Below are positions 3,765-39,759 of a DNA stretch of 64,000 bases, piece after piece (positions within the stretch are counted from its first letter, which is position 1; every line of letters starts with the position of its first letter). This stretch comes from Cellulomonas composti. GTDB lineage: Bacteria; Actinomycetota; Actinomycetes; Actinomycetales; Cellulomonadaceae. The DNA is taken from positions 62,001 to 126,000 of the forward strand of contig NZ_BJWG01000011.1 of assembly GCF_007990245.1 (NCBI RefSeq), written 5' to 3'. The notes under the pieces were generated by a model. The model ran no database searches, was not told the origin of the DNA, and saw only the letters and a program-made list of their open reading frames with translations. The translations under genes and the position numbers were made by a program.

Positions 3765-5072
3765 ATGGATGCCGTCCCGGACCCGCCGCTCGTGGCTGAG
3801 CGGACCCCGGATGCGGGCCTGGTGCCACCTCCGCCGGCGTTCGCGCCGGCCCCCACGCGGCGTTCGTTGCGGCGGGCTCGCGAACGCGAGCGCCCGGCCG
3901 TCCCCGGCACCGCGGTCGACGTCGACGTGCTGGTGATCGGCGCGGGACAGGCGGGCCTGTCCGCCGCGTACCACCTGCGCAAGGCCGGTTTCGTGCCCGT
4001 CGGCGCGGCCGGCTGGGACACCGCGGAGCGCACGTTCGTCGTGCTCGACGCCTCGCCCGGACCCGGCGGCGCCTGGCAGGAGCGCTGGCCCGGCATGACC
4101 ATGGCGGACGCGCATGCGGTGCACGAGCTGCCGGGGATGCCGCTCGTCGTCGTCGACCCGGCCGAGCCGGCCCGTGCGGCGGTCCCGTACTACTTCGCGC
4201 AGTACGAGGACGCGTACGGCCTGCACGTCCAGCGGCCGGTCGTGGTCAGCGCGGTGCGCGACGACGGCGCGGGGCGGCTGCTCGTCTCGTCGCACGTGGT
4301 CGACCGGCCCGACGAGGCCGTCTCGTGGCGCGCCCGCGGCCTGGTGAACGCGTCCGGGACGTGGCGCAAGCCGTTCTGGCCCGCGTACCCCGGCGTCGGC
4401 GTGTTCCGGGGCCGCCAGCTGCACGCCCGGGACTTCGTCTCGCCCGAGGCGCTCGCGGACGGGCACGTCGTGGTCGTCGGTGGCGGGACGTCGGCGGTGC
4501 AGCTCCTGCTCGCGGTCGCGGAGGTCACGACGACGACGTGGGTGACCCGGCGGCCGCCCGCGTGGCGCGACGAGCAGTTCACGCCCGAGCTCGGGCGCGC
4601 GGCTGTCGCGTTGGTCGACGAGCGCACGCGTGCCGGCCTGCCGCCCGGGTCCGTCGTGTCCGTGACCGGGCTGCCGCTGACGCCCGCGTACCGCGCCGGC
4701 ATCGAGTCCGGCGTGCTGCGCGCCCGTCCGATGTTCAGCCGGCTGACGGCCGACGCCGCGGTGTGGGACGACGTCACGCCGCCGCCGGTGCCCGCGGCCG
4801 ACGACGGACTGGACGGCCTCGGCGGCTGGGTCGCCGGGCCGGCCGAGGTCCCCGCGCGCACGATCCTGTGGTGCACGGGCTACCGCGCGTCGCTCGACCA
4901 CCTCGCGCCGCTGCGGCTGCGCGGCCCCGGCGGCGGGATCGTCATGGCCGGTACGCAGGTCGCCGCGGACCCGCGGCTGCAGCTCGTCGGGTACGGCCCG
5001 AGCGCGTCGACGATCGGCGCGAACCGCGCCGGCCGCGAGGCCGTCCAGAACCTCGAGCGTATGCTCCCCTGA
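3765..5072 (+). CDS. flavin-containing monooxygenase-like FAD/NAD(P) oxidoreductase
   Basis: 435 residues from the ATG at 3765; the frame stays open far upstream, but this Met is the first plausible start past the divergent mshD promoter region. DVLVIGAGQAGLSAAYHLRK (about residue 49) is an FAD-binding GxGxxG fold. FRGRQLHARDF fits the FMO/Baeyer-Villiger fingerprint FxGxxxHxxx(Y/F). GHVVVVGGGTSAVQLLLA is the second, NAD(P)H-binding dinucleotide fold. The protein ends with a typical GPSASTIGANRAGREA segment. It probably oxygenates a small organic substrate with NADPH; the substrate cannot be inferred, and the neighbours do not help. Confidence 0.82.
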   Translation: MDAVPDPPLVAERTPDAGLVPPPPAFAPAPTRRSLRRARERERPAVPGTAVDVDVLVIGAGQAGLSAAYHLRKAGFVPVGAAGWDTAERTFVVLDASPGPGGAWQERWPGMTMADAHAVHELPGMPLVVVDPAEPARAAVPYYFAQYEDAYGLHVQRPVVVSAVRDDGAGRLLVSSHVVDRPDEAVSWRARGLVNASGTWRKPFWPAYPGVGVFRGRQLHARDFVSPEALADGHVVVVGGGTSAVQLLLAVAEVTTTTWVTRRPPAWRDEQFTPELGRAAVALVDERTRAGLPPGSVVSVTGLPLTPAYRAGIESGVLRARPMFSRLTADAAVWDDVTPPPVPAADDGLDGLGGWVAGPAEVPARTILWCTGYRASLDHLAPLRLRGPGGGIVMAGTQVAADPRLQLVGYGPSASTIGANRAGREAVQNLERMLP

Positions 5073-5128: not shown

Positions 5129-6055
5129 TCAGTCCTCGCGGTGGCGCTCGCCGAAGAGGGTGACGTCGATGACCTGTGCGGGCTCCTGCGCCGCCCGCGT
5201 CACCGCCTCGATCGTCGTGAGGTCGCCCAGGTACTCGGCCTCCCCCTCGCCGAGGACCGGCATCGAGATCGTCCCGTCGTCCGCGACCAGCCCCAGCAGC
5301 GCGCTGCCGCGGGAGGCGGTGCGAAGCGTCGGGTCCGGGGTGAAGGTGTTCGGCGGGTCCAGGACGGCCAGCACGTGCCGCCCGGCGAAGGCCTTCAGCA
5401 TCGTCTCGGTGTCCGCACCGGCGCCGAACGTCACCGCGAGCCGCAGGACGTCGGGCGCCTCGCGGGACGGGTCGAAGTCGTTCTCGACCGCGACCGTCAG
5501 GACGACGGTGCGCCACGACGCGTCCGGTGAGCCGAAGTCGACCTCGACGGCCCGCGACCCGTTCTCCGTCTCCTCGTCTCGGTAGGCGGACCCCTCCTCG
5601 ACGGCAGTCACGTGACCCTCGACGACCCCACCGAGAACAGACCGGGCCGGCGCGCCGTCGATCGAGAACGTCACGTTGGGCAGCGCGTCGCGCAGGCTCC
5701 TGTCGAACCACACTCCGTCCACCATCCCCCAGCGTGCGGCCAGGACCTGGATCGCGTACGCCAGCGCAGCGCCGTCGGTGGGCTGCGGGGTGGGCCGATC
5801 GGGTGTGGGGTCCACGGACGTCCCGACGGACTGCGGGGTCACGCCTCGCGTGAGGAACGCCCCGGCCGCTCCTGCCCCCGCGGCGACGACCACGACCACG
5901 ACCGCGGCGGCGAGCAGGCGGACCGGGCGGCGTGGTGCGCGCTCCGGTACGAGCGGGTCGGGCCGCTCGATCGCGAACTCGGGGACGCCCTCGGCGAGCT
6001 CGCGGTCGACCTCGGCGCGCAGTGCCTTGCGCAGGTCTGCCTCGGTGAACATCAA
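5129..6055 (-). CDS. single-pass membrane protein paired with an ECF sigma gene
   Basis: 308 residues. A cytoplasmic N-terminus of about 45 residues is followed by one hydrophobic segment (LLAAAVVVVVVAAGAGAAGA, about residues 47-66) and an external domain of about 235 residues that I do not recognise. No H-x3-C-x2-C anti-sigma zinc motif is visible. The ATG overlaps the stop of the upstream sigma factor gene by 4 bp, so it is probably a regulator or target of that sigma factor. The same arrangement recurs at 27259-28592, 32227-34526 and 34673-36507. Since the sigma gene here is frameshifted, coupled translation of this protein may be reduced. Confidence 0.75.
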   Translation of the reverse strand: MMFTEADLRKALRAEVDRELAEGVPEFAIERPDPLVPERAPRRPVRLLAAAVVVVVVAAGAGAAGAFLTRGVTPQSVGTSVDPTPDRPTPQPTDGAALAYAIQVLAARWGMVDGVWFDRSLRDALPNVTFSIDGAPARSVLGGVVEGHVTAVEEGSAYRDEETENGSRAVEVDFGSPDASWRTVVLTVAVENDFDPSREAPDVLRLAVTFGAGADTETMLKAFAGRHVLAVLDPPNTFTPDPTLRTASRGSALLGLVADDGTISMPVLGEGEAEYLGDLTTIEAVTRAAQEPAQVIDVTLFGERHRED

Positions 6056-6617
6056 CGGACCTCCTCACGGTTCGACGGTGGCTGCGCCCACGTGTGCAAC
6101 CTGCCCAGCGCCTGGTGCGCCGTGACGCGCACGGTGCTGCGGGAGATCCCGAGGGTCTCGGCGATCTCCCGGTCGCTCATGTCCTCGAGGTAGCGCAGCG
6201 CCAGGACGGCCCGCGCCCGGGGCGGCAGGTGCCGGAGCATCGCGACCGCGGCGTGCAGGGAGTCGAGCCCCGCGACCTCGTCGACCTGACTGGCCAGGTC
6301 TGCAGGGAGCTCGGTGGGAGGGGGCTCCTCGGCGCGTCCGTCCAGGTAGAGCCGTCCAGGTAGAGCCGCACCATCACGGTCCGGGCGTACGCCAGCGGAC
6401 GACGGGCGTGGCCGAACGCCGGCTGGGTCAGCAGCCGCAGCAGCGTCGCCTGGACCAGGTCCTGGGCGTCGGTACGGTCGCGACAGATGCCCAGCGCGAT
6501 CCGGTACAGCGCCGGGGCGTGCTGCGTCGCAAGGTCGGCGACGAGGTCGCCCTCGCCGGGTGTGCGCGACAAGACGAGCGCCCCTCCGATCGGCTCTACG
6601 ACGTCCAGCATGGACAA
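6052..6617 (-). pseudogene. ECF (SigE-type) sigma factor gene, frameshifted by a 14-bp duplication
   Basis: The first frame (TTG at 6617 or ATG at 6611) encodes sigma region 2, including CRDRTDAQDLVQATLLRLL, up to TVMVRLYLDG. The frame then shifts, and region 4 (MSDREIAETLGISRSTVRVT) continues in another frame to a stop at 6052. The break lies exactly at a 14-bp direct repeat (6338-6351 and 6352-6365). Removing one copy leaves 552 nt, an unbroken gene of 183 residues. The gene overlaps the downstream membrane protein start by 4 bp (ATGA). It is either a recent loss of function, a reversible contingency mutation, or a sequencing error; the exact duplication argues against a simple base-calling error. 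Confidence 0.88.
6338..6365. repeat. 14-bp perfect tandem duplication inside the sigma factor gene
   Basis: Two adjacent copies of CCGTCCAGGTAGAG, followed by 3 further matching bases (CCG). As 14 is not a multiple of 3, the second copy shifts the frame between sigma regions 2 and 4. Such a short direct repeat can be lost by replication slippage. Confidence 0.95.
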
Positions 6618-6683: not shown

Positions 6684-8672
6684 TCAGTCCTCCGAGGTCG
6701 TCGCGGGCGTGGCGAGGCCCTGCGCGATCAGGTCCATGACGGACGAGTCCGCGAGGGTCGTCGCGTCGCCGACCTGGCGGTGCTCCGCGACGTCCCGCAG
6801 GAGGCGGCGCATGATCTTGCCGGACCGGGTCTTGGGCAGCTCCGCCACGACGAGGATCTGGCGCGGCTTCGCGATCGGGCCGATCTCCTTGGCGACGTGG
6901 TTGCGCAGCTCGGTCTGCACGTCGTCGGCGCTCCTGTCGCCCACGCCCGCGTCGCCGCGCAGGATCACGAACGCGACCACGGCCTGCCCCGTCGTCTCGT
7001 CGGACGCGCCGACGACCGCTGCCTCGGCGACCCACGGGTGCGAGACCAGGGCCGACTCGATCTCGGTGGTCGAGAGCCGGTGGCCCGAGACGTTCATGAC
7101 GTCGTCCACGCGGCCGAGCAGCCAGATGTCGCCGTCGCCGTCCTTCTTGGCGCCGTCGCCCGCGAAGTACAGGCCGCGGAACCGCGACCAGTACGTGTCC
7201 TTGTACCGCTCCGGGTCGCCCCAGATGCCGCGGAGCATCGCCGGCCAGGGAGCCGTGAGCACGAGGTAGCCGCCCGCGCCGTCCGGCACGGCCTGCGCGT
7301 CGTCGTCGACGACCTCGGCCGCGATGCCCGGCAGCGCGACCTGCGCGGAGCCCGGCTTGGTGGCCGTGACCCCGGGCAGCGGGCTGATCATGATCGCGCC
7401 CGTCTCGGTCTGCCACCACGTGTCGACGATCGGCGCGCTGTCGCCACCGATCACGCGGCGGTACCACATCCACGCCTCGGGGTTGATGGGCTCGCCCACG
7501 CTGCCGAGCACGCGCAGGCTCGACAGGTCGAACTGCGCCGGGATGTCCTCGCCCCACTTCATGCAGGTCCGGATCGCGGTCGGCGCGGTGTAGAGGATCG
7601 TCACGCCGTACTTCTGCACGATCTCCCACCAGCGGCCCTTGTGCGGGGTGTCGGGCGTGCCCTCGTAGATGACCTGCGTCGCGCCGTTGATCAGCGGCCC
7701 GTAGACCACGTACGAGTGGCCCGTGATCCAGCCGATGTCCGCCGTGCACCAGTACACGTCGGTCTCCGGCTTGAGGTCGAAGACGTTGAGGTGCGTGTAC
7801 GCCGACTGCGTGAGGTAGCCGCCCGTGGTGTGGAAGATGCCCTTCGGCTTCCCCGTGGTGCCCGACGTGTACAGGATGAACAGCGGGTGCTCGGCGTCGA
7901 CCTCGACCGGCTCGTGCTCGTCGGACGCGGTGTCCACGACGTCCGACCACCACACGTCCCGGCCGTCGGTCCACGCGACGTCCTGGCCGGTGCGGCGCAC
8001 GACGAGCACGTGCTGCACCGTCGTCTCGCCCTTGGCGAGCGCCTCGTCGACCGCGGGCTTGAGCGCCGACGGCGCGCCCCGGCGGAACCCGCCGTCGGCG
8101 GTCACGACGAGCTTGGCCTCCGCGTCGAGGATGCGGCTGTACAGCGCCTCGGCCGAGAACCCGCCGAAGACGACCGAGTGCGGCGCCCCGATACGCGCGC
8201 ACGCGAGCATCGTGACGACGGCCTCCGGGATCAGCGGAAGGTAGATCGCGACGCGGTCGCCCGTGCCGACGCCCAGCGCGACGAGCGCGTTGGCGGCCCT
8301 GGCGACCTCGCGCTGCAGATCGGCGTACGTGATCGTGCGGGTGTCGCCCGCCTCACCCTCGAAGTGCAGCGCGACCCGGTCGCCGCGACCCGCCTCGACG
8401 TGCCGGTCGACCGCGTTGTACGCGGCGTTCAGCCGGCCGTCGGCGAACCACTTCGCGAACGGTGCGTCCGACCAGTCGAGCACCTGCGTGAACGGCGTGC
8501 TCCACGTGAGCAGCTCGCGGGCCTGGTCCGCCCAGAACGCCTCACGGTTCGCGTCGGCCCACGCGTACAGGTCGTGCTGGGCGTTGGCCTGTGCGCTGAA
8601 CTCGGGGGACGGGGCGAAGCGGCGGTCCTCGGAGAGCAGGTTCTCCAGGCCGCCGGGGGTCGACTCGGTCAC
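6684..8672 (-). CDS. acs: acetyl-CoA synthetase
   Basis: 662 residues, full length for Acs, which makes acetyl-CoA from acetate, ATP and CoA through acetyl-AMP. The adenylate-forming motif [16 protein letters not shown] is present, as are WWQTETG (substrate pocket) and [16 protein letters not shown] (hinge to the C-terminal domain). The C-terminal [15 protein letters not shown] contains the lysine that is reversibly acetylated in this family. The gene lies downstream of a long palindrome at 8705-8736 and is followed after 66 bp by the broken sigma gene. Its position beside the ssd/tad cluster is like that in mycobacteria. Confidence 0.97.
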
Positions 8673-21637: not shown

Positions 21638-22432
21638 GTGGACCTCAACTGCGATCTGGGCGAGGGGTACGACGACTGGGAGCCGGGGGTCGAGGGCCTC
21701 GACACTCGGCTGCTCGCGATCGTGACCAGCGCGAACGTGGCGTGCGGCGCTCACGCGGGGGACGACCGGGCGATGGCCGAGGTGTGCCGGGTCGCGGCTC
21801 GGCACGGGGTCGCGGTGGGTGCGCACGTGTCGTACGAGGACCGCGCGGACTTCGGCCGGACGTTCCGCGACGTGCCGCCCGACGAGCTGCGCGCACAGGT
21901 GGCCGCGCAGATCCGCGCGCTCGCGGCGCACGCCGCCGCTGCCGGGACCCGGATCCGGTACGTCAAGCCGCACGGCGCGCTCTACAACGCGCTCGTCCAT
22001 CACGACGAGCAGGCCCGCGCGGTGCTCGACGGTGTCGCCGACGCGTGCGCCGACCGGCGGGTCGCCGACCTGCGGACCGCCGAGCCCCTCCCGGTCGTCG
22101 GGCTGCCGGGGTCGGCCGTGCTCGCGCTCGCGGCGAGCCGAGGCGTGCGTGCGGTGGGCGAGGCGTTCGCCGACCGCGGCTACCGGTCCGACGGGACGCT
22201 CGTGCCGCGCACGGAGCCCGGGGCCCTGGTCACCGATCCTCGCGAGGTCGAGCGGCGGGTCGTGCAGCTCGCGACGACCGGCACGCTGACCGCCGCCGAC
22301 GGGTCACAGCTCGCACTCGACGCCGAGACCGTCTGCGTCCACTCCGACACACCGGGTGCCGCCACGCTCGCGGCGGGTGTGCGTCGCGCGCTGGAGCGCG
22401 CCGGGGTGCGGCTCGCGTCCTTCGCCGACTGA
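21638..22432 (+). CDS. pxpA: 5-oxoprolinase subunit A (LamB/YcsF family)
   Basis: 264 residues from a GTG with GGAAGGTGGGGG upstream. VDLNCDLGEGYDDWEPG at the N-terminus and TSANVACGAHAGDDRAM are the LamB/YcsF signature; IRYVKPHGALYN and AFADRGYRSDGTLVPR are further family segments. PxpA, PxpB and PxpC together hydrolyse 5-oxoproline to glutamate with ATP. It is the first gene of the trio and is separated from pxpB by a 126-bp gap filled by a tandem repeat. Confidence 0.95.
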   Translation: MDLNCDLGEGYDDWEPGVEGLDTRLLAIVTSANVACGAHAGDDRAMAEVCRVAARHGVAVGAHVSYEDRADFGRTFRDVPPDELRAQVAAQIRALAAHAAAAGTRIRYVKPHGALYNALVHHDEQARAVLDGVADACADRRVADLRTAEPLPVVGLPGSAVLALAASRGVRAVGEAFADRGYRSDGTLVPRTEPGALVTDPREVERRVVQLATTGTLTAADGSQLALDAETVCVHSDTPGAATLAAGVRRALERAGVRLASFAD

Positions 22433-22440
22433 TCGTCGCG

Positions 22441-22504
22441 CACGGGTGACGTCGTGCACGGGTGACGTCGTGCACGGGTGACGTCGTGCACGGGTCACGT
22501 CGTG
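22441..22504. repeat. 16-bp tandem repeat, four copies, between pxpA and pxpB
   Basis: The unit CACGGGTGACGTCGTG occurs at 22441, 22457, 22473 and, with one change, at 22489. Each unit contains the 6-bp palindrome GACGTC and the junctions form CGTGCACG. It occupies the space before the pxpB ribosome binding site. Confidence 0.95.
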
Positions 22505-22558
22505 CACGTGGCGCGGAGGTCCGGTGTCGGCGGCGCGCCGGTCCGGCAGGATCGGGGG

Positions 22559-23287
22559 GTGCGCGTGCTCAGGTACGGCGACGACGCCCTGCTCGTCGAG
22601 GTCGACGACCTCGACGAGGTCCGGCGCGTCGACCTCGCGCTGCGCGCCGCCCGGTCGCACGCGCCGCACGAGCACGCGCCGTACGAGCACGGCGCCGCGA
22701 CGCTCGCGCACGTCGTCGACCTCGTCCCGGCGGCGCGCTCGGTGCTGCTGCGCGTCGACGCACGCGGTGACCTCGACGCACTCGCCCGGGAGGTCACACG
22801 TCTCGTGACCGACTCGACGACCTCGTCGTCGGCCGGCGCCTCGCCCGAGAGCACGGCGCCGACGAGCACGGCGCCGACGAGCACGGCGCGGCCCGACGCT
22901 GCCGGGGTCGTCGAGCTGCCGGTCGTGTACGACGGGATCGACCTGCGCGAGGTCGCCGAGCTCACCGGGCTGGCGGTGGGCGACGTCGTTCGACGACACA
23001 CCGCCGCGCTGTACACCGTGGCGTTCGGCGGGTTCATGCCGGGCTTCGCGTACCTCGTCGGGCTCGATCCGTCGCTGCGTGTCCCGCGCCGCGACACCCC
23101 GCGCGAGCGGGTGCCCGCCGGCTCCGTGGCGATCGCCGACACCTTCTCGGCCGTGTACCCCCGCGCGACCCCCGGCGGCTGGCGCCTCCTGGGACGGTGC
23201 GCGACGACGCTCTTCGACGTCGACCGCGACCCGCCCGCACTGCTCACTCCCGGCACCGCGGTGCGCTTCGTCCCGGTGACCCCATGA
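22559..23287 (+). CDS. pxpB: 5-oxoprolinase subunit B (KipI-like)
   Basis: 242 residues from a GTG at 22559 with AGGATCGGGG upstream. The N-terminal domain begins VLRYGDDALLVEVDDLDEVRR. A Ser/Thr/Ala linker (residues about 85-115, with STAPT repeats) joins it to the cyclophilin-like C-terminal domain, recognised by the family segments LPVVYDGIDLREVAELTGL and AFGGFMPGFAYLVGLDPSL with PRRDTPRERVPAGSVAIA. The repeated linker is unusual for PxpB. The stop overlaps the pxpC start by 4 bp. Confidence 0.94.
   Translation: MRVLRYGDDALLVEVDDLDEVRRVDLALRAARSHAPHEHAPYEHGAATLAHVVDLVPAARSVLLRVDARGDLDALAREVTRLVTDSTTSSSAGASPESTAPTSTAPTSTARPDAAGVVELPVVYDGIDLREVAELTGLAVGDVVRRHTAALYTVAFGGFMPGFAYLVGLDPSLRVPRRDTPRERVPAGSVAIADTFSAVYPRATPGGWRLLGRCATTLFDVDRDPPALLTPGTAVRFVPVTP
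22850..22890 (+). repeat. 15-bp repeat in the pxpB linker
   Basis: The unit GAGCACGGCGCCGAC is repeated in frame nearly three times and encodes STAPT repeats between the two PxpB domains. Confidence 0.85.
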
Positions 23288-26457: not shown

Positions 26458-27272
26458 CCACGCCCGTCGGTGGGTGGGCTTCCCGTCGCGAGGCGACGGG
26501 AACTCCACCCGCCAGCCCGGGCAAGGGCCCCGGCGAGCCGCTCGGGCTCGGGATGCCGGGGGTCGGGAGCCGCGGGGCCGCGCGGATCGCCGAGCGGGAG
26601 CGGGACGGCGCGTGCGCCGGGGACCTGGTGATCGCCGGGGTCACGCCGCTGTCAACGTGCGACTGGCCCGGGCACCTGGTGGCGACCGTGTTCCTCCAGG
26701 GGTGCCCCTGGCGGTGCACGTACTGCCACAACTACGCGATCCTCGACCCGCGCGCGCCGGGGCAGGTGCCGTGGCGCACCGTCCGCGACCTGCTGTCTCG
26801 TCGGACCGGGCTGCTGGACGGCGTGGTGTTCTCCGGCGGTGAGCCGACGCGCCAGCCCGCGCTCGCGGACGCGATGCGCGAGGTCCGGGCCGCGGGCTTC
26901 GGCGTGGGCCTGCACACCGGCGGTGCCTACCCGCGCCGGCTGGCCACCCTGCTGCCGCTGGTCGACTGGGTCGGCTACGACGTCAAGGCGCCGCGCGCGC
27001 TCTACCGCGCGATCGTGCGCGCGGGCGGCGAGACGACGGCCGCGGACCAGGCCTTCGAGGGCCTGCGCCTGGTGCTGGAGTCGGGCGTCGACGTGCAGGT
27101 CCGCACCACCGTCGATCCCACGGTCCTGTCCGACGACGACGTGGCCGCGCTGACGCGCGAGCTCACCGCGCTCGGCGTGCGCGAGCACGTCCTGCAGACG
27201 GTCCGCCCGGACGGCACCTCCGACGAGTACCGCGCGGCGCTCGCCGGGGTCGGGGCGCTCAGGGCACCGTGA
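26454..27272 (+). CDS. nrdG: anaerobic ribonucleotide reductase activating protein (radical SAM)
   Basis: 272 residues from the GTG at 26454, which overlaps the nrdD stop. CPWRCTYC at Cys84/88/91 binds the 4Fe-4S cluster, and VVFSGGEPTRQPAL is the SAM-contacting GGE motif. The enzyme cleaves SAM to install the glycyl radical on NrdD. Homologues start close to IAGVTPLSTCDWPG (residue 63 here); the extra 60 residues are low in conservation and contain a REP-like palindrome (26472-26510). A later start, for example ATG at 26552, is possible. The 3' end overlaps the convergent gene by 14 bp. Confidence 0.93.
   Translation: MTTPVGGWASRREATGTPPASPGKGPGEPLGLGMPGVGSRGAARIAERERDGACAGDLVIAGVTPLSTCDWPGHLVATVFLQGCPWRCTYCHNYAILDPRAPGQVPWRTVRDLLSRRTGLLDGVVFSGGEPTRQPALADAMREVRAAGFGVGLHTGGAYPRRLATLLPLVDWVGYDVKAPRALYRAIVRAGGETTAADQAFEGLRLVLESGVDVQVRTTVDPTVLSDDDVAALTRELTALGVREHVLQTVRPDGTSDEYRAALAGVGALRAP
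26472..26510. repeat. REP-like palindrome inside the nrdG 5' coding region
   Basis: The arms are GGGTGGGCTTCCCGTCGC (26472-26489) and GCGACGGGAACTCCACCC (26493-26510), separated by GAG. Sixteen of 18 positions pair. It shares GGGTGG...CGTCG...GGGA..TCCACCC with the four copies at 39305-39735, so it is the same repeat family. Confidence 0.8.
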
Positions 27273-28035
27273 TCGTGCGCGGGTCGGCGATCGCGACGAC
27301 CGTCTGCGCGGTCCCGGCGTCGAAGTCGTGCAGGACGACCGGGACGTACGGCCAGGCGACGAGCCGGTCGCCCGTCTCGGGGCCGTCCACCTCGCACGCC
27401 ACGAGGTGCAGCGGGCCATCCAGGCCCAGGCTCGACCCGGGCGTGAACGACGCGTAGCTCGGTTCGTCGTCGTCGGGCACGACGAACCCGACGACCGTGC
27501 CGTCGGCGCCGACCAGCGCATACGACCCGCCGGCGACCTCGACGGTGGTGTCGGTCGAGCTGCCGGCCGAGAGCACCATCGACAGGTCGTCGTCGGCCGC
27601 GAGCACGATGCCGTCGGCGTCGGGTCGGGTCTGGATCGTGACTCCGACCTCCTCGCCGCACCAGAAGATCCCCGCAGCCGGCCCGAGCGCGGCGGCACGT
27701 TCCTGCGGCGTCGCGTCGCTCAGGTCGTCGTCGACCGTCGGATCCGACGAGGCCGCGCGGGTGGGGGCCGGCGTCGGCGTGCGCGACGGCGGCGTGCTCG
27801 TCGTGCCCGGGGTGCCCGCGGGGAGCGAGGGCGAGCCCTCGCGCACCTGTGCGGCGCCGATGCCGAGGGCGCCGACCGCGCACGCCGCGGCCACGCCCGT
27901 GCCCGTCTGGCGGGCCACGCGACGGCGGCGCACGCGCGTCGTCACACGCTTCGCCGCGGTCTCGTCGAGGCCGTGGGCGCCGCGGGCGACGGTGTCGGCC
28001 AGGTCCGCCAGCAGGTCGTGAAGCTCGTCGTTCAT
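27259..28035 (-). CDS. single-pass membrane protein paired with an ECF sigma gene
   Basis: 258 residues from the ATG at 28035, which overlaps the sigma gene stop by 4 bp. About 40 basic cytoplasmic residues precede one hydrophobic segment (GTGVAAACAVGALGIGAA, about residues 43-60). A Thr/Pro/Ser linker (residues 70-100) leads to an external domain of 150 residues with two cysteines (FWCGEEVGV, LVACEVDG). No anti-sigma zinc motif is seen. The external domain is not recognised. By position it is the partner of the sigma factor, and resembles in layout the proteins at 5129, 32227 and 34673. Confidence 0.75.
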   Translation of the reverse strand: MNDELHDLLADLADTVARGAHGLDETAAKRVTTRVRRRRVARQTGTGVAAACAVGALGIGAAQVREGSPSLPAGTPGTTSTPPSRTPTPAPTRAASSDPTVDDDLSDATPQERAAALGPAAGIFWCGEEVGVTIQTRPDADGIVLAADDDLSMVLSAGSSTDTTVEVAGGSYALVGADGTVVGFVVPDDDEPSYASFTPGSSLGLDGPLHLVACEVDGPETGDRLVAWPYVPVVLHDFDAGTAQTVVAIADPRTITVP

Positions 28036-28592
28036 CGTGTCCTCCGCTCGATGAGGTCCAGCCGTTCGGGTGTGGGTGCGTCGCCGTCGGGAGATCCGAG
28101 CCGGGTGCGCAGGTTCGCGCGGCCGTCGGCCAGGTAGCGCTTGACCGTGCCGGTGCTCAGTGCGAGCAGGTCCGCGATCTCGTCGACCGGCAGGTCCTCG
28201 AGGTGGTGCAGCACCACGCACGTGCGTTCGCGCGGGGTGAGCTGCTGCAGCGCCTGCGCGAGCACGAGGCGATTGCCGACGAGCTCGTCGGGCGGCCCGT
28301 CCAGGCCGTGCGCGGGGCTCGACGCGGGCACCGCGGCCAGGTGCCGGATCGTCGCCCAGTGCCGCCGGCGACGGAACCCGTCGAGGTAGATGGTGTGCAT
28401 CGCGCGGCGCACGTACGCCTCCGCGGAGTCGATCTCGCGCGCCGCGCGCCGCCCGGCGAACACCTTCACGAGCGCGTCCTGCACGAGGTCCTCGGCCTCC
28501 CTCGTGTCGCCCGTCAGGAGGTAGGCGCGCCCGACGAGCGCGCGCCCGCGTTCGCGGACGAGCGTGTCGAGCACCTCCTGCCAGTCGTGCAC
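28032..28592 (-). CDS. ECF sigma factor, SigE-type
   Basis: 186 residues from the GTG at 28592 (GGAGA 5 bases upstream); the frame opens earlier at 28640. Region 2 is present as GDTREAEDLVQDALVKVFAG with EAYVRRAMHTIYLDGFRR, and region 4 as LPVDEIADLLALSTGTVKRYLADGRANL. ECF sigma factors direct RNA polymerase to stress or envelope promoters. The gene is joined to the membrane protein at 27259 by an ATGA overlap and lies after the Cthe_2159-like gene on the same strand, with a 150-bp gap. Confidence 0.93.
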   Translation of the reverse strand: MHDWQEVLDTLVRERGRALVGRAYLLTGDTREAEDLVQDALVKVFAGRRAAREIDSAEAYVRRAMHTIYLDGFRRRRHWATIRHLAAVPASSPAHGLDGPPDELVGNRLVLAQALQQLTPRERTCVVLHHLEDLPVDEIADLLALSTGTVKRYLADGRANLRTRLGSPDGDAPTPERLDLIERRTR

Positions 28593-28742
28593 CGTGTCTC
28601 CTCGCCTGTTCCTACCCCAGATGACGCACGGGGACCCCATCCGGTTGGGGTGTGGACGCCACCCGGGGGATCCGGGCCGCTGGAGCAGGCGCGCGATGCG
28701 GGCGGCCGGCGGGTCGACCTCAGGTCGGTCGCCGGTCGTCGG

Positions 28743-32226: not shown

Positions 32227-33990
32227 TCAGTCGGTGATCACCAGCGAGATCGGACCGGTGACGGCGTAGAACTCGTCGGGGTAGCCGAAGTCGGCCCGCA
32301 GCCACAGCTCGTACTCCCCCGCGGGCAGCGGGAGCTGCGCATCCGGCTCGGCGAGCGTGCTCGCGCACCTCACGAGCTGGATCCCCGCGCCGACCGGATG
32401 CGCCGCCGTCTCACCGGCGTCGACGTCCACGGTCACCAGCGGGTCCTCCATCGCGAGCGTCCGGGCGACGATCTGGCCGTCCTTCGCGACGAACACCCAG
32501 GCGGAGCCGGAGTACCCGGACTCCACGTGCGCGCCCGAGCGGTTGCGGATGGCGACGTCGAGCGCCAGAAGCGTGCCCGTGGGAGTCGGGGCCGGGGGTG
32601 TCACGACGAGCTCGAGAGGCGCCTCGTCGACGCCCGCCGCGGCCAGCGCCTCCAGGTCGTCGCTGGTGCCGCACTGCCCGGTGGCGACGGTCGCACCCGG
32701 CGACGGTGTCTCGCTCGTCGGCGCGCCGACGAGCTCCGCCGGGAACGGCCCGACGACCAGCTCCTGCTGACCGACCGTCCCGTCCGCCAACCGATAGTTG
32801 GCGTGCTCGACCAGCCAGATCTCGACCTGTCCGGAGATCGGCTCGCCCGTCGCGCAGCTGGTCTTCGAGATCGGGAAGGACGACGTGGTCGACTCGCCGG
32901 GTTCGAGGTCCGTGCCCATGGCGTCGTACATCGCCCACATGTCGTCTATCACGACACCGTCCTGCGTCACGATCCCGCTGTTGTCGTTCGGGTAGTAGCT
33001 CAGGTTCTGGTCGCTCGTGTTGACGACGTGCCCTTGGGCGGCCATCGCCTGGCGTCCGTCGCCGACCGCGAACGGGTCGCCCGGCTCGAGCGCCAGCGGG
33101 CCCGGCTGAGGCGCCGCGACGCGTGCGCGCAGCTCCGCGTCGGAGTCGCCGCACGCGATCTCGCCGAGGGGCGTCGGCGCCGGTGACGCACCGCCGTCGT
33201 CGGGCACGACGACGGCCACCGGCTCGCTCGTGCCGCGCGCGGCCCACGTACCGCCGGAGTGGTACGTCCAGCCGGTGGTCTGCGTGACGACGAGGTCGTA
33301 CGAGCCGGGGGCGAGCGGTTCGCCGTCGCACGCGACGATGTCGACAGCGACGTCGGGCGAGCGCAGCGGGAACGGGTCGACGCCGAAGTCGGCGGCCATG
33401 GCGAGCGCGTCGTCCACGTCAGGCGCGCCCTCGCCCTCCTGCTGCGCGACGACGACCCCGTCACGCAGCAGCGCGACCGTCCAGCCGTACCGCCAGCCGA
33501 CCGGATCGCCCACCGGCTCGGTCGTCGCGCCGTCGTCGGTGCCGCCGTCGGCCGTGCTGCCGGCGGTGGGCTCGACCGGCGGTGGCACGGTCGCCACGCC
33601 CATCTCGACGACGGTCGTGAGCGTCCAGGTCCCGGCGGCGGAGGGAACGACCGAGGCCGGGTCCACGACCGGAGCGCGCGGCACGCTGCCGTCGGGCCCG
33701 ACCCCCGAGGCGTGGTCGTCGGCCCGCAGCTCCGCGACGGTCTGCCCGCACACGCCGACGCCCGAGGGCTCGACGACGTGCTCGGTACCCAGGCGCGGCA
33801 CCACGACGGCGCCGACCGCCACGACGGCCGCGAGCGTGCCCGCGGCGACCGTGACCCGGCCGGTGCGGCGGCGGCGGGCGCGCGTGCGGATCAGCTCGAC
33901 GGGGACCTCGTAGGCACGGGCCTCGGGCGAGGCCGCCGCGTCGTCGAGCGCGCTGGTCAGCGGGTGGCGCTCGTCGGGGTGGTGCGTCAT
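32227..33990 (-). CDS. single-pass membrane protein with external CGxxxxEL repeats, ECF partner
   Basis: 587 residues from the ATG at 33990, which overlaps the sigma gene stop by 4 bp. A basic N-terminus is followed by a hydrophobic segment (VTVAAGTLAAVVAVGAVVV, about residues 46-64). The long external region holds three related starts, VCGQTVAELRADD, ACGDSDAELRARV and QCGTSDDLEALAA, each opening a section with a beta-rich pattern ending in VVVTQT or YELWLRADFGYP. This suggests a repeated extracellular domain. It is paralogous to the protein at 34673. The function is unknown; sensing for the coupled sigma factor is possible. Confidence 0.75.
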   Translation of the reverse strand: MTHHPDERHPLTSALDDAAASPEARAYEVPVELIRTRARRRRTGRVTVAAGTLAAVVAVGAVVVPRLGTEHVVEPSGVGVCGQTVAELRADDHASGVGPDGSVPRAPVVDPASVVPSAAGTWTLTTVVEMGVATVPPPVEPTAGSTADGGTDDGATTEPVGDPVGWRYGWTVALLRDGVVVAQQEGEGAPDVDDALAMAADFGVDPFPLRSPDVAVDIVACDGEPLAPGSYDLVVTQTTGWTYHSGGTWAARGTSEPVAVVVPDDGGASPAPTPLGEIACGDSDAELRARVAAPQPGPLALEPGDPFAVGDGRQAMAAQGHVVNTSDQNLSYYPNDNSGIVTQDGVVIDDMWAMYDAMGTDLEPGESTTSSFPISKTSCATGEPISGQVEIWLVEHANYRLADGTVGQQELVVGPFPAELVGAPTSETPSPGATVATGQCGTSDDLEALAAAGVDEAPLELVVTPPAPTPTGTLLALDVAIRNRSGAHVESGYSGSAWVFVAKDGQIVARTLAMEDPLVTVDVDAGETAAHPVGAGIQLVRCASTLAEPDAQLPLPAGEYELWLRADFGYPDEFYAVTGPISLVITD

Positions 33991-34526
33991 GGTCGGGTCC
34001 TCCCGCCGGTGAGCGGCGCGGTCTCGTCGGTCCCGTCCGGGAGCGGGCCGAGCAGCGCCTCGAGCTTGTGACCGGCCGTCGACAGGTAGCGCTTCACGGT
34101 GCCGTCGGCCAGGCCCATGCGGGCCGCGACCTCCGGCACGGTGAGGTCCTCGCACCAGCGCAGCACCGCGGCGGCCCGCTCCTGCGGCGCGAGCGTCGCG
34201 AGCGCGGCCCGCACGTCGAGCGTGGCTCCGACGACGGGCCCGGGGTCGCGCGCAGGCTCGTCGGACGCGCCGACGAGGTGCCGCACCCGGGCCCAGCGGG
34301 CTCGTCGTCGAGCGCCGTCGAGGAAGACGGTGAGGATCGCGCGCCGGACGTACGCCTCCGCGTCGTCGGGCGTGAACCCCGCCCGGCGACGCGAGAACGT
34401 GCGCACCAGCGCCTCCTGCACGAGGTCCTCGGCGGCGTGCCGGTCCCCGCTGAGCAGGTAGGCATAGCCGAACAGCGCCCGCCCGCGCTCGCGGGCCAGC
34501 GTCGCCAGCAGATCCTCGTCCCCCAC
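33987..34526 (-). CDS. ECF sigma factor, SigE-type
   Basis: 179 residues from a GTG at 34526 (MGDEDLLATLARERG); the frame opens 15 codons earlier at 34571. Region 2 is DRHAAEDLVQEALVRTFSRR with DDAEAYVRRAILTVFLDGARRR; region 4 is LTVPEVAARMGLADGTVKRYLSTAGHKL. It is very similar in pattern to the genes at 35953 and 28032, so these are tandem paralogues. It overlaps the membrane protein at 32227 by 4 bp. Confidence 0.93.
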   Translation of the reverse strand: MGDEDLLATLARERGRALFGYAYLLSGDRHAAEDLVQEALVRTFSRRRAGFTPDDAEAYVRRAILTVFLDGARRRARWARVRHLVGASDEPARDPGPVVGATLDVRAALATLAPQERAAAVLRWCEDLTVPEVAARMGLADGTVKRYLSTAGHKLEALLGPLPDGTDETAPLTGGRTRP

Positions 34527-34672
34527 CGCTGCCCTTCCCCGATCCGGTCGAGGCGGCAACCGCCACCTCACCAGTCAAGACGCACACCGCGTCGGAACCG
34601 TTGTACCGGCCCGGCGGCGCGATCGTGCGAGGAATCGGCCACGATCCGTGGCCAGTCCTTCGCGCGATCGGA

Positions 34673-35956
34673 TCAGGGGGCCTCGGAGTGGGGGTGCGGG
34701 TGGGGCGCGGTGATCGTGAGCGGGTACGGCCCGGCGGCCGCGGTCCAGGTCGTGGTGCCGGGGGCCGCGGTGTCCGCGTCGGCCTGCGGTGTCAGCGGCA
34801 CGACGATCCAGTACTCGTACTCGCCCTCGTCGAGACCGGTGCGCGGGGCGTCGCCCGTGTCGCAGCGGCCCAGCTCGCTCGGCGCCTGGATCGTCTGCTC
34901 GCCGCCGGGCTCGAGGCCGATCGCCGTGGTCCCGTCGTCGGTGTGGTCGAGGCCGCCGACGATCGTGCCGTCCCGCGTGACGACGACCGTGGGCGTCCGC
35001 ACGTCGACCACCAGGCCGTCGGGAGAGTCGTTCGTCAGGGTGACCGGCAGGTCGAGCGTGTCGTCGGCGTCGCGGGTCGTCGTCGGGTCCTCGACCGAGA
35101 GCCGCACCGGGCTCGGGTTCTGCTGCGGGTCCGCCAGCGCGGCCAGCTCGTCGTCGTCGCCGCCGCACGCGAGGGAGGGCGCCGAGGGCGCGGCGGTCGG
35201 TACGTCGACGGCCGAGACGCTGATCCCGGCGCTGGTCGCCCGCGCGACCCAGCCGTTCGAGCCCGCGACGGTCCAGCCGAAGGTCGTCGAGGTCACCAGC
35301 TCGTAGCTGCCGACCGGCACCGCACCCTTCTCGGCGGTCGCGCACCAGACGAACTCGCCCTCGTACGTCGCCGTCATCGGGAACGGCTGCGGGACGGCGT
35401 CGACGGCGACGCGCTGCGCCGTCTCGAGCGGCATGTCCTCGTGGTCGTCGAGCACGGCGACCACCCGGTCGCCCTGCAGCAGCACGACCTGCGAGCCGAT
35501 CGTCCACCCCTCCGGCACCGTCGGCACCGAGGCCGCCAGTGCCTCCCCGACGGCCAGCCGCACCGTGACCACCCATGTGTTCCCCTGCGCGGACGCGGCA
35601 GCGTCGCTGGCGGTCGCCCCCACGACCCAGAGGTCCGTCCCCGACGCGGGGGTGTCCCCGGACGGCGCGATGCCGTCCCCGGCGCGAATCTCGTCGGAGG
35701 TCTGCCCGCAGGCCGCCGGGGCGCCGGGGTCGATGGTCGGGGTGGTGCCGCTCGCCGGGCCAGGCTCGGCGGACAGCCGGGGGACCGCGGTGGCGGTCGC
35801 GGCGACGACGAGAACTGCGGTGACGCTCACCGCGAGCATGCGGCCCGCGCGGTGCCGGTGGGTACGGCGCAGCACCACGTCGAGGTCCTCGAGCGGGCGG
35901 TTCAGGTCGTCCTCGTCGCCCAGCGCATGCAGGCGCGAGCGCAGGTCGTCGTTCAT
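34673..35956 (-). CDS. single-pass membrane protein, paralogue of 32227, ECF partner
   Basis: 427 residues from the ATG at 35956, which overlaps the sigma gene stop by 4 bp. One hydrophobic segment (RMLAVSVTAVLVVAATATAV, about residues 39-58) precedes an external region with two CGxxxDE starts (ACGQTSDEIRAGD and ACGGDDDELAALAD), against three in the protein at 32227. The segments VGSYELVTSTTFGWTVAGSN and EGEYEYWIVVPL have direct counterparts in 32227. It ends in a His/Pro tail. This is a duplicated ECF/membrane module that lost or gained one external repeat. Function unknown. Confidence 0.75.
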   Translation of the reverse strand: MNDDLRSRLHALGDEDDLNRPLEDLDVVLRRTHRHRAGRMLAVSVTAVLVVAATATAVPRLSAEPGPASGTTPTIDPGAPAACGQTSDEIRAGDGIAPSGDTPASGTDLWVVGATASDAAASAQGNTWVVTVRLAVGEALAASVPTVPEGWTIGSQVVLLQGDRVVAVLDDHEDMPLETAQRVAVDAVPQPFPMTATYEGEFVWCATAEKGAVPVGSYELVTSTTFGWTVAGSNGWVARATSAGISVSAVDVPTAAPSAPSLACGGDDDELAALADPQQNPSPVRLSVEDPTTTRDADDTLDLPVTLTNDSPDGLVVDVRTPTVVVTRDGTIVGGLDHTDDGTTAIGLEPGGEQTIQAPSELGRCDTGDAPRTGLDEGEYEYWIVVPLTPQADADTAAPGTTTWTAAAGPYPLTITAPHPHPHSEAP

Positions 35957-36507
35957 GCGTCCTCCTGGGCCGCGTGGGTGCGGGCGATCACCAGCACCTC
36001 GGGTGCGTCGTCGTCGGGCAGACCGAGCGGTCCGAGCACCACCTCCAGCCGGCGCAACGCGTCGTGCACGTAGCGCTTGGCGGTGCCCGTCGACACGTTC
36101 ATGCGTGCGGCGACCTCGGGCACGGTGAGGTCGTCGTAGTAGCGGAGCACCACCGCCGCGCGATGCTGCGGGCCGAGCACCCCGAGTGCCGCGCGCAGGT
36201 CCAGCCGCGTCTCCACGGACGGGATGGCCGGTGCCTCGTCGGGTACGGCGACCGCGTGCCGCAGTGCCGCGAAGCGGGCGCGCCGGCGGTGGTCGTCGAG
36301 GAACACCGTGAGGATCGCGCGGCGCACGTACGCCTCGGCGGCGTCGGGTTCGAAGCCGCGCCGGATCCGCCGGAACACCTTCACGAGCGCGTCCTGCACC
36401 AGGTCCTGGGCCGCGGCGTGGTCCCCGCTGAGCAGGTGTGCGTACGCCACCAGCGCCGGCCCGCGGGTGCGGACCAGCTCCGTGAGCACGTCGTCGGCTC
36501 GCGGCAC
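35953..36507 (-). CDS. ECF sigma factor, SigE-type
   Basis: 184 residues from a GTG with AAGGAGG about 5 bases upstream. Region 2 is DHAAAQDLVQDALVKVFRRI with DAAEAYVRRAILTVFLDDHRRR; region 4 is LTVPEVAARMNVSTGTAKRYVHDALRRL. Together with the partner at 34673 it forms the third intact ECF module. It is divergent from hppA, with a 301-bp upstream region. Confidence 0.93.
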   Translation of the reverse strand: MPRADDVLTELVRTRGPALVAYAHLLSGDHAAAQDLVQDALVKVFRRIRRGFEPDAAEAYVRRAILTVFLDDHRRRARFAALRHAVAVPDEAPAIPSVETRLDLRAALGVLGPQHRAAVVLRYYDDLTVPEVAARMNVSTGTAKRYVHDALRRLEVVLGPLGLPDDDAPEVLVIARTHAAQEDA

Positions 36508-36808: not shown

Positions 36809-39118
36809 ATGGTCGAGCTCGGGTCCACGAGCATCACGATCGTCTGGGTCATCGCAGGTCTCGCGGTCGCCGCGCTGGTCGCGGCGCTGCTGCTGCGGCG
36901 CCAGGTGCTCGCGGCGGGCGAAGGCACGGCGTCGATGCAGGAGATCGCCAAGGCGGTCCAGGAAGGCGCATCGGCGTACCTGAACCGTCAGTTCCGCACG
37001 CTCGCCCTGTTCGCCGTGGTGGTCTGTGCGCTGCTGTTCCTGCTGCCGGGGGACTCCGGCGTCAAGGTCGGCCGTTCGGTGTTCTTCCTGGTGGGTGCGG
37101 GCTTCTCCGCGACCATCGGGTTCGTCGGCATGTGGCTGGCGACGCGCGCGAACCTGCGCGTCGCGGCGGCCGCGTCCCATCCGGGAGGCCGGGCCGAGGG
37201 CGCGCGCATCGCGTTCCGCACCGGCGGTGTCGTCGGGATGTCCGTGGTGGGCCTGGGCCTGCTCGGTGCCGCGAGCGTCCTGCTCATCTTCGGTGCCGAC
37301 GCGCCGGCCGTGCTCGAGGGCTTCGGCTTCGGCGCCGCGCTGCTCGCGATGTTCATGCGCGTGGGTGGCGGCATCTTCACCAAGGCGGCGGACGTCGGCG
37401 CCGACCTCGTCGGGAAGGTCGAGCAGGGCATCCCGGAGGACGACCCGCGCAACGCCGCGACGATCGCGGACAACGTCGGCGACAACGTCGGCGACTGCGC
37501 CGGCATGGCGGCCGACCTGTTCGAGTCGTACGCCGTGACGCTGGTCGCGGCGCTCATCCTCGGCAAGGCGGCGTTCGGCGAGCAGGGGCTCGTGTTCCCG
37601 CTCATCGTCACCGCGATGGGCGCGCTCGTCGCCGGGCTCGGCGTCCTCATCACGCGCGTGCGCGGCGAGGAGAGCGGGCTCACCGCGATCAACCGCGGCT
37701 TCTACATCTCGGCCGTCGTCGGCGTGCTGCTCTCGGCCGTCGCGGCGTTCGTCTACCTGCCCTCGTCGTACTCCGAGTTCACCGGCGGTACCGCGGACCT
37801 GTCCGGCCTGGACTCCGATCCGCGCGTCGTCGCCACGCTGGCGGTCGCGATCGGCGTGGTGCTGGCCGGCATCATCCTGTGGGTCACCGGCTACTTCACG
37901 GGCACGACGAGCAAGCCCACGCTGCACGTCGCGGCGACCACCCGCACCGGCGCCGCGACCGTGGTCCTGTCCGGCATCGGCGTGGGGCTCGAGTCCGCCG
38001 TCTACACCGCGGGCATCATCGCCGCCGCGATCTGCGGCGTGTTCCTCATCGCCGGTGGCAACGTGGCGCTCTCGCTGTTCCTCGTCGCGCTGGCCGGCTG
38101 CGGCCTGCTGACCACCGTCGGCGTGATCGTCGCGATGGACACGTTCGGCCCGGTCAGCGACAACGCGCAGGGCATCGCCGAGATGTCCGGCGACGTCACG
38201 CCCGAGGGTGCGCAGATCCTCACGGACCTGGACGCCGTCGGCAACACGACGAAGGCCGTCACCAAGGGCATCGCGATCGCCACCGCCGTGCTGGCGGCGA
38301 CCGCGCTGTTCGGCTCGTACTTCGACGCCGTGCAGAGCAAGCTCGCCCAGATCGGCGACGTCTCGATCGATCCGCTGACCGAGGCGATGATGTCGTCGAA
38401 CATCATCAGCCCGGTGACGCTCGTCGGGGTGATCCTCGGCGGCGCGACGGTGTTCCTGTTCTCCGGGCTCGCGATCGACGCCGTGACCCGCGCCGCCGGC
38501 GCGATCGTCTTCGAGGTGCGCCGCCAGTTCCGGGAGAACCCCGGGATCATGACGTACGAGGTCCGTCCCGAGTACGGCAAGGTCGTCGACATCTGCACGC
38601 GCGACTCGCTGCGCGAGCTCGCCACGCCGGGCCTGCTGGCCGCGTTCGCGCCGATCGCCGTGGGCTTCGGCCTGGGCATCGGCCCCCTCGCGGGCTTCCT
38701 GGCCGGCGCGATCGGCACCGGCGTGCTCATGGCCGTGTTCCTCGCGAACTCGGGCGGTGCGTGGGACAACGCGAAGAAGATCGTCGAGGACGGGCACCAC
38801 GGCGGCAAGAACTCGCCGGCCCACGCGGCGGCGGTCATCGGCGACACCGTCGGCGACCCGTTCAAGGACACCGCCGGCCCGGCGATCAACCCGCTCATCA
38901 AGGTGATGAACCTGGTGGCCGTGCTCATCGCCCCGGCGATCGTCGTGATCTCCGTCGGCGACGACGCCAACACCGTCGCCCGCATCTCCATCGCCACCGT
39001 CGCGGCCCTCATCGCCTTCGGCGCCGTCATCGCGAGCCGCCTGCGCGCCGCGAAGGTCGACCGCGAAGGCGCGCTCGAGCACGCGATCGAGGAGCAGGAG
39101 GCCGCCGCGGCCCACTGA
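36809..39118 (+). CDS. hppA: membrane-bound proton-translocating pyrophosphatase, K+-independent type
   Basis: 769 residues with about 16 membrane segments. It hydrolyses pyrophosphate and pumps protons. DVGADLVGKVEQGIPEDDPRN and IADNVGDNVGDCAGMAADLFESY are the pyrophosphate/Mg-binding motifs, mirrored near the C-terminus by AAVIGDTVGDPFKDTAGPAINPLIKV. GNTTKAVTKG carries Lys482 where potassium-dependent enzymes have Ala, which marks the K+-independent H+-pumping class. The ATG at 36809 has GAGGAGG upstream. It is a single-gene unit closed by a strong hairpin at 39145-39180. Confidence 0.97.
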   Translation: MVELGSTSITIVWVIAGLAVAALVAALLLRRQVLAAGEGTASMQEIAKAVQEGASAYLNRQFRTLALFAVVVCALLFLLPGDSGVKVGRSVFFLVGAGFSATIGFVGMWLATRANLRVAAAASHPGGRAEGARIAFRTGGVVGMSVVGLGLLGAASVLLIFGADAPAVLEGFGFGAALLAMFMRVGGGIFTKAADVGADLVGKVEQGIPEDDPRNAATIADNVGDNVGDCAGMAADLFESYAVTLVAALILGKAAFGEQGLVFPLIVTAMGALVAGLGVLITRVRGEESGLTAINRGFYISAVVGVLLSAVAAFVYLPSSYSEFTGGTADLSGLDSDPRVVATLAVAIGVVLAGIILWVTGYFTGTTSKPTLHVAATTRTGAATVVLSGIGVGLESAVYTAGIIAAAICGVFLIAGGNVALSLFLVALAGCGLLTTVGVIVAMDTFGPVSDNAQGIAEMSGDVTPEGAQILTDLDAVGNTTKAVTKGIAIATAVLAATALFGSYFDAVQSKLAQIGDVSIDPLTEAMMSSNIISPVTLVGVILGGATVFLFSGLAIDAVTRAAGAIVFEVRRQFRENPGIMTYEVRPEYGKVVDICTRDSLRELATPGLLAAFAPIAVGFGLGIGPLAGFLAGAIGTGVLMAVFLANSGGAWDNAKKIVEDGHHGGKNSPAHAAAVIGDTVGDPFKDTAGPAINPLIKVMNLVAVLIAPAIVVISVGDDANTVARISIATVAALIAFGAVIASRLRAAKVDREGALEHAIEEQEAAAAH

Positions 39119-39180: not shown

Positions 39181-39304
39181 CCGTCCCCGCCGACCACACG
39201 GTGGGGCCAGGCCGGCGGCTGCCGCGGCGCGCGGTAGCGGGCAGGCCGGGCGGGATCGCCGGCCGGAGGTGCCCGGCGAGGGGGTCGGGGCGCCGCGGCG
39301 GGTT

Positions 39305-39735
39305 GGTGGGTGGCGTTCTCGTCGCGAGGCGGCGGGAAGTCCACCCATCGGTGTGCGCGCCGGCGGGGGTGGGCCGCGGCGGGTTGGTGGGTGGCGTTGC
39401 CGTCGTGGGGTGGCGGGGAGTCCACCCATCGGTGTGGGCGGCGGCGGAGGCGGGCCGTGCGGCCGGGAGTCCGGACACTGCTGCGGGTGGCTGTGTCCGG
39501 CGAGGGGCTCGGGGTGGCGCGGCGGGTTGTGGGTGGCGTTGCCGTCGCGGGGCGGCGGGGAGTCCACCCATCGGTGTGCGCGGCTGCTCGGTGTGGGCGC
39601 CGGCCGAGGCGGGCCGTGTGGCCGGGAGGTCCGGACACTGCCGGGGGTGGTTGTGCCTGGTGAGGGGGGTCGGGGTGCTGCGGCGGGGTGGTGGGTGGCG
39701 TTGGCGTCGTGGGGTGGCGGGGAGTCCACCCATCG
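39305..39735. repeat. four REP-like repeat copies in a 640-bp gene-free region
   Basis: A unit of about 46 bp opens with GGTGGGTGGCGTT and ends with AGTCCACCCATCGG. The GGGTGG/CCACCC arms lie at 39308/39341, 39389/39422, 39531/39564 and 39693/39726, so the internal length is almost constant (39 bp). The arms can pair to form an imperfect hairpin. Between copies 2-3 and 3-4 a second repeated segment occurs, GCCGGGAG(G)TCCGGACACTG. No gene is seen in 39181-39759 despite open frames, which come from the high GC content. A related copy is in nrdG at 26472-26510. Confidence 0.9.
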
Positions 39736-39759
39736 GTGGGTGTCGGGGAGGATGGGCGC

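Follow-up and report, generated by a model that had tools for sequence, protein, structure and literature searches.

The ssp1 gene of fission yeast is among the closest described parallels to the allele that we report here. Microhomology-mediated tandem duplications in fungal ssp1 are described as reversible in the available excerpts of that work (PMC13207564), and the duplication examined here resembles them in being bounded by a short microhomology pair within a coding region, although it is a single bacterial allele known from one sequence. In pneumococcus, capsule genes (the type 3 locus, cap8E, and tts) undergo phase variation by spontaneous sequence duplication (Waite 2001, 2003; excerpts of PMC4243769 and PMC4022640). 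As in those genes, a duplication within an ORF would inactivate the gene described here; however, this gene encodes a sigma factor and is represented by one sequence only, whereas the excerpts report reversibility for the capsule genes. In Staphylococcus aureus, agr variants arise either when agrC undergoes a duplication combined with an inversion or when a poly(A) tract in agrA changes, and revertants were measured at 0.12-2.07% (PMC6686034, in part). They provide another example of a regulatory gene hit by a small duplication and, for agr, of reversible inactivation. Among the matches listed in our literature search, from whose scope subscription literature mostly fell out, no title described an ECF sigma factor gene that phase-varies by tandem duplication.

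Here, we describe a locus of Cellulomonas composti that lies within a 64,000-nucleotide stretch of DNA (the window; C11:62001-126000) of a 3.54-Mb draft genome consisting of 34 contigs. Like operons that encode an ECF sigma factor and a membrane regulator, the locus encodes sigma regions 2 and 4 and a single-pass membrane partner that starts at the sigma stop. Unlike those operons, its sigma reading frame is broken, and its partner carries no recognized anti-sigma domain. Our analysis suggests that a recent, frame-breaking 14-bp tandem duplication probably inactivated this accessory ECF sigma factor gene.

Results

The two halves of the sigma factor are encoded on the minus strand in different frames. 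The region-2 frame (6177..6617) is native up to the duplication and then continues as an out-of-frame tail to a TGA at 6179-6177, such that translation from the ATG at 6611 yields 144 aa comprising region 2 and a foreign tail. The ORF matches Pfam Sigma70_r2 (PF04542; E 1.2e-10, residues 29-88). The frame that encodes region 4 of this sigma factor (6052..6351) is open to a TGA at 6054-6052 and lacks a convincing start of its own, and Sigma70_r4_2 (PF08281; E 2.7e-16) is found in that frame within 6055-6378(-). The two regions do not lie on one polypeptide, as the frames differ and a stop intervenes at 6179-6177, which indicates that the gene is a broken member of the ECF sigma-70 factors. Against the SigE-fam_strep model (TIGR02983), the separate pieces score 32.4 and 62.0 bits relative to a curated cut-off of 141.55, which presumes an unbroken protein. 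Judged by codon usage alone, the frame changes at 6351, which is the boundary between the two copies of the repeat.

The repeat is an exact 14-bp tandem duplication within the sigma ORF, with two copies of CCGTCCAGGTAGAG arranged head to tail without a spacer at 6338-6365 and a length that is not a multiple of three. The period-14 run extends to 6368 through a partial third copy, CCG, at 6366-6368. Tandem Repeats Finder reports the same run (6338-6368, period 14, 2.2 copies, 100% match), and a separate scan for exact tandem repeats recovers it identically. The preliminary description of this DNA had proposed an exact 14-bp duplication that joins regions 2 and 4 across different frames within a 183-codon gene. 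Direct reading and the two repeat searches confirm the duplication; Pfam, the homolog profile presented below, and the codon scan bear out the frame arrangement; and interval arithmetic agrees with the gene length.

Chance does not account for the repeat. In 100 dinucleotide shuffles of the window, exact tandem runs averaged 0.69 in all, those with a period of at least 13 averaged 0.04 (maximum 1), and none reached 31 nt. The window itself contains 11 exact tandem runs with periods of 10-40, nine of which have a period that is a multiple of three; the remaining two are the 14-bp run at 6338 and a 16-bp run at 22440-22495. Across 39 loci of related genomes (191,732 bases, some overlapping), the period was a multiple of three in 15 of 18 runs with periods of 10-60. 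When inspected by eye, the other three comprised a 14-bp run that looks intergenic, a 10-bp run that leaves its ORF open, and a G+C-simple 10-bp run near a gene start. The 16-bp unit in the window forms an array of ~4.7 copies (22434-22508, 96% match) that appears to be intergenic, as it follows the end of one gene at 22432 and codon support resumes only with a segment that begins at 22559. A further stretch at 39292-39738, probably between genes, holds long direct repeats (81 and 162 bp, 87-88% alike) and follows a 769-aa ORF that ends at 39118.

We considered whether the two halves could function as they stand. Two-piece sigma systems exist, such as SigO-RsoA of Bacillus subtilis, and regions 2 and 4 could in principle be expressed as separate polypeptides here, given that the region-2 stop overlaps an ATG of the region-4 frame (ATGA, 6180-6177) that has a GAGG 2 nt before it, which makes re-initiation conceivable, and that 62 aa of region 4 are listed in the database as a separate protein (P0006). 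However, a start at ATG 6180 would yield only 42 aa, and none of the relatives encodes a split protein. Furthermore, none of the 11 in-frame ATG, GTG, TTG, or CTG codons showed a Shine-Dalgarno sequence, in a weak test that ignores the last 3 nt before the start and that also scored none for the sigma gene's own starts (6617 and 6611). A functional split sigma factor is thus ruled out mainly by the unsplit relatives, with internal starts that look poor by this weak test, and we regard it as exceedingly improbable. A full-length protein could also result if ribosomes shifted frame at the repeat or bypassed it, as identical copies would allow a hop in principle, but we recognized no slippery or bypass signal by eye and the relatives do not carry the repeat, which leaves hardly any likelihood for this explanation.

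To place the break, we used a profile of seven intact homologs, which consisted of P0003, one sequence each from G020, G024, G032, and C. persica, and two from G025, with the C. persica sequence and one G025 copy nearly identical. The profile matches the region-2 frame over positions 6-89 (98 bits) and the region-4 frame over positions 83-174 (123 bits). The two matches have in common RLYLDG, which is encoded by the duplicated bases. Matches to the sigma family at E<=1e-15 occur in eight of 40 genomes of the genus, including that of C. composti. In the seven other genomes, each of the eight loci gives one continuous match free of stops, and the C. composti locus alone is in two pieces. None of the seven aligned relatives has a repeat at the position of the duplication. 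Because the homologous loci are unbroken, the duplication is derived.

Neither half of the gene shows visible decay. Defining a conserved column as one with the same residue in at least six of the seven homologs, we found that region 2 keeps 24 of 26 such columns and region 4 keeps 36 of 40, with an alignment gap among the six that are lost. The G+C content by codon position in the region-4 frame (0.787/0.511/0.926) is like that of the partner gene (0.766/0.513/0.925), and the tail in frame 0 displays a wrong-frame pattern (0.481/0.923/0.885). This retention of conserved residues and coding composition suggests that the break is recent, as had been proposed, and disfavors an old pseudogene. 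The term is relative, as slow decay would be hard to detect where tblastn identity between the homologs and the two pieces is only about 36-71%.

The draft state of the genome raises the alternative of an assembly or consensus artifact, in which the strain would have a single copy. The 31-nt run fits within the span of single reads, which argues against this explanation, and assemblies usually err by collapsing copies rather than by creating them. The genome is also 99.99% complete, and our codon-usage scan, for which 23 ORFs from the window served as the training set and which sees segments above a score threshold such that small breaks could escape it, found no further clear frame break inside a gene across the 64 kb. 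The scan identified 22 same-strand frame changes, of which four have no start codon close to the point of change. Two of these are weak signals on the minus strand, opposite stronger genes of the plus strand; a third reflects one gene that finishes at its regular stop and is followed by another; and the fourth is the sigma locus. Completeness and the codon scan likewise disfavor a generally low-quality assembly. We therefore judge an artifact to be unlikely. A mixed culture is a further alternative that we counted against a loss-of-function allele.

Database matches at 100% to the region-2 ORF, the 62-aa region-4 piece, and the partner protein were found only on the 141,593-base contig of C. 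composti itself. The database clusters that hold them contain 1, 2, and 1 member sequences, respectively, all from that one contig. Part of this search for proteins of sister strains scored just the 7999 candidates with the most shared words. A DNA search of 58 genomes, including that of C. composti, returned matches in 49, mostly short and in unrelated places.

Downstream of the sigma gene, 5129..6052 (minus strand) encodes a 307-aa protein with one hydrophobic segment at residues about 41-71, a candidate cognate anti-sigma factor or regulator. The gene had been delimited as 5129-6055; its start is most likely the ATG at 6052-6050 rather than the TTG at 6055. This ATG shares bases with the sigma stop (TGATG) and lies downstream of GAGGAGG, a site that the Shine-Dalgarno scan scored from a position one base off. 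Because this Shine-Dalgarno sequence is strong and belongs to the partner gene itself, the break need not silence the gene, which weakens the earlier proposal that the repeat is a switch for the coupled membrane protein. Coupling between the sigma factor and its partner might even persist if ribosomes were to re-initiate at ATG 6180.

The 307-aa protein has no Pfam or NCBIfam match of any kind at E<=0.001. Its N-terminal motif, MFTEADLRKALRAEVD, resembles the partner in G020 (60% over 20 residues) and that in G024 (44% over 43); besides C. composti, G020 and G024 are the only genomes with matches in a search of 40. Likeness to the remaining partners is visible in the alignment and not significant by BLASTP. 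Structure prediction from three sequences was uninformative (mean pLDDT 32) except for a helix at 4-20. A motif like FTExxFRxAFRAxVDxE precedes the membrane segment at window 5990-6052 and in the partner genes of loci L040 and L041, and it occurs in weaker form in L035, L036, L079, and L080, with divergent outer parts of the proteins. It is possible that this motif represents a short anti-sigma element.

The locus lies between two conserved neighbors: the acetate--CoA ligase gene acsA (6684..8672, minus strand), which is supported by Pfam/NCBIfam and the relatives, and a gene for a flavin-dependent oxidoreductase (3861..5072, plus strand), with an ArsO-family match under the family cut-off. 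In all three relatives tested with Pfam (G020, G025, and G032), acsA is followed by a GH5+CBM2 cellulase gene, with ~5 kb of other genes between cellulase and oxidoreductase genes in G032. At the same site, G024 looks cellulase-like by sequence only, and G022 carries other genes. No orthologue of the sigma pair was found at the acsA site in the five relatives inspected, which form part of a set of nine with a located acsA gene. Because relatives carry the cellulase there, the sigma/membrane-protein pair is accessory at this site. The contrast between the sigma pair at window 5129-6617 and the GH5+CBM2 cellulase at L077, L078, and L081 would represent a gene replacement or an insertion/deletion at a conserved site.

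Homologous sigma pairs in G020, G024, G025, and C. persica lie near a gene for an anaerobic ribonucleotide reductase activase-like protein, presumably nrdG; in the first three of these genomes, the pairs lie 19-28 kb from acsA. Outside the locus, the sigma family has eight additional, weaker matches in the C. composti genome, three of which are in the window. These three ECF sigma genes (27265-28598, 32230-34529, and 34706-36498, minus strand) have both regions in one frame, and each is followed by a gene for a Pfam-less protein, with a clear hydrophobic segment in two of the three partners.

Discussion

We propose that the 14-bp duplication arose by replication slippage, aided by the 3-bp direct repeat CCG, the copies of which are 14 bp apart. 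The involvement of a 3-bp microhomology is suggested by the presence of CCG on both sides of the unit. The product would consist of region 2 and a foreign tail and would lack region 4, in which case the regulon would be off. This loss of sigma function follows, as a prediction, from the broken continuity of the domains. Production of the membrane protein encoded downstream may continue from the ribosome-binding site of that gene. Like other short tandem duplications, the repeat would lose one copy at low frequency and so regain the frame, and such reversibility would need no evolved switch at the locus. With respect to repair, excerpts of one report state that mutSL homologs went undetected in nearly all members of the phylum and that loss of nucS in Streptomyces ambofaciens did not considerably affect indel rates (PMC11109965).

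The preliminary description had also presented the repeat as a candidate phase-variation switch, in which one-copy (on) and two-copy (off) cells coexist and toggling is maintained by selection. The gain and loss of tandem copies is intrinsically reversible, and both halves of the sigma gene look undamaged, as this proposal would predict; however, any young mutation would leave the halves undamaged. The proposal loses further ground because the unit is present in just two copies and the seven aligned relatives have no repeat there. A reversion frequency of ~1e-5 is low beside those of dedicated switches. Pneumococcal capsule genes do phase-vary by sequence duplications (PMC4243769 and PMC4022640, in part), yet the excerpts of the latter give an expected reversion of ~1e-5 at most for inserts of <=9 bp. 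The 14-bp pair is expected to revert rarely, below switch-like rates. We therefore find a selected switch quite improbable. Even less probable is that gain and loss of the 14-bp copy toggles the ECF sigma factor and its whole regulon as bet-hedging of envelope signaling in an environmental actinobacterium, with the reversible duplication located immediately behind sigma region 2.

Taken together, our findings from one allele in one draft genome would support, at most, a real, recent, and potentially revertible loss of function. If real, this allele would offer a clean natural case of a regulator that was turned off by one small tandem duplication, before visible decay. If its reversion is measurable, the locus would furthermore serve as a test of short two-copy duplications as low-rate switches in high-G+C bacteria.
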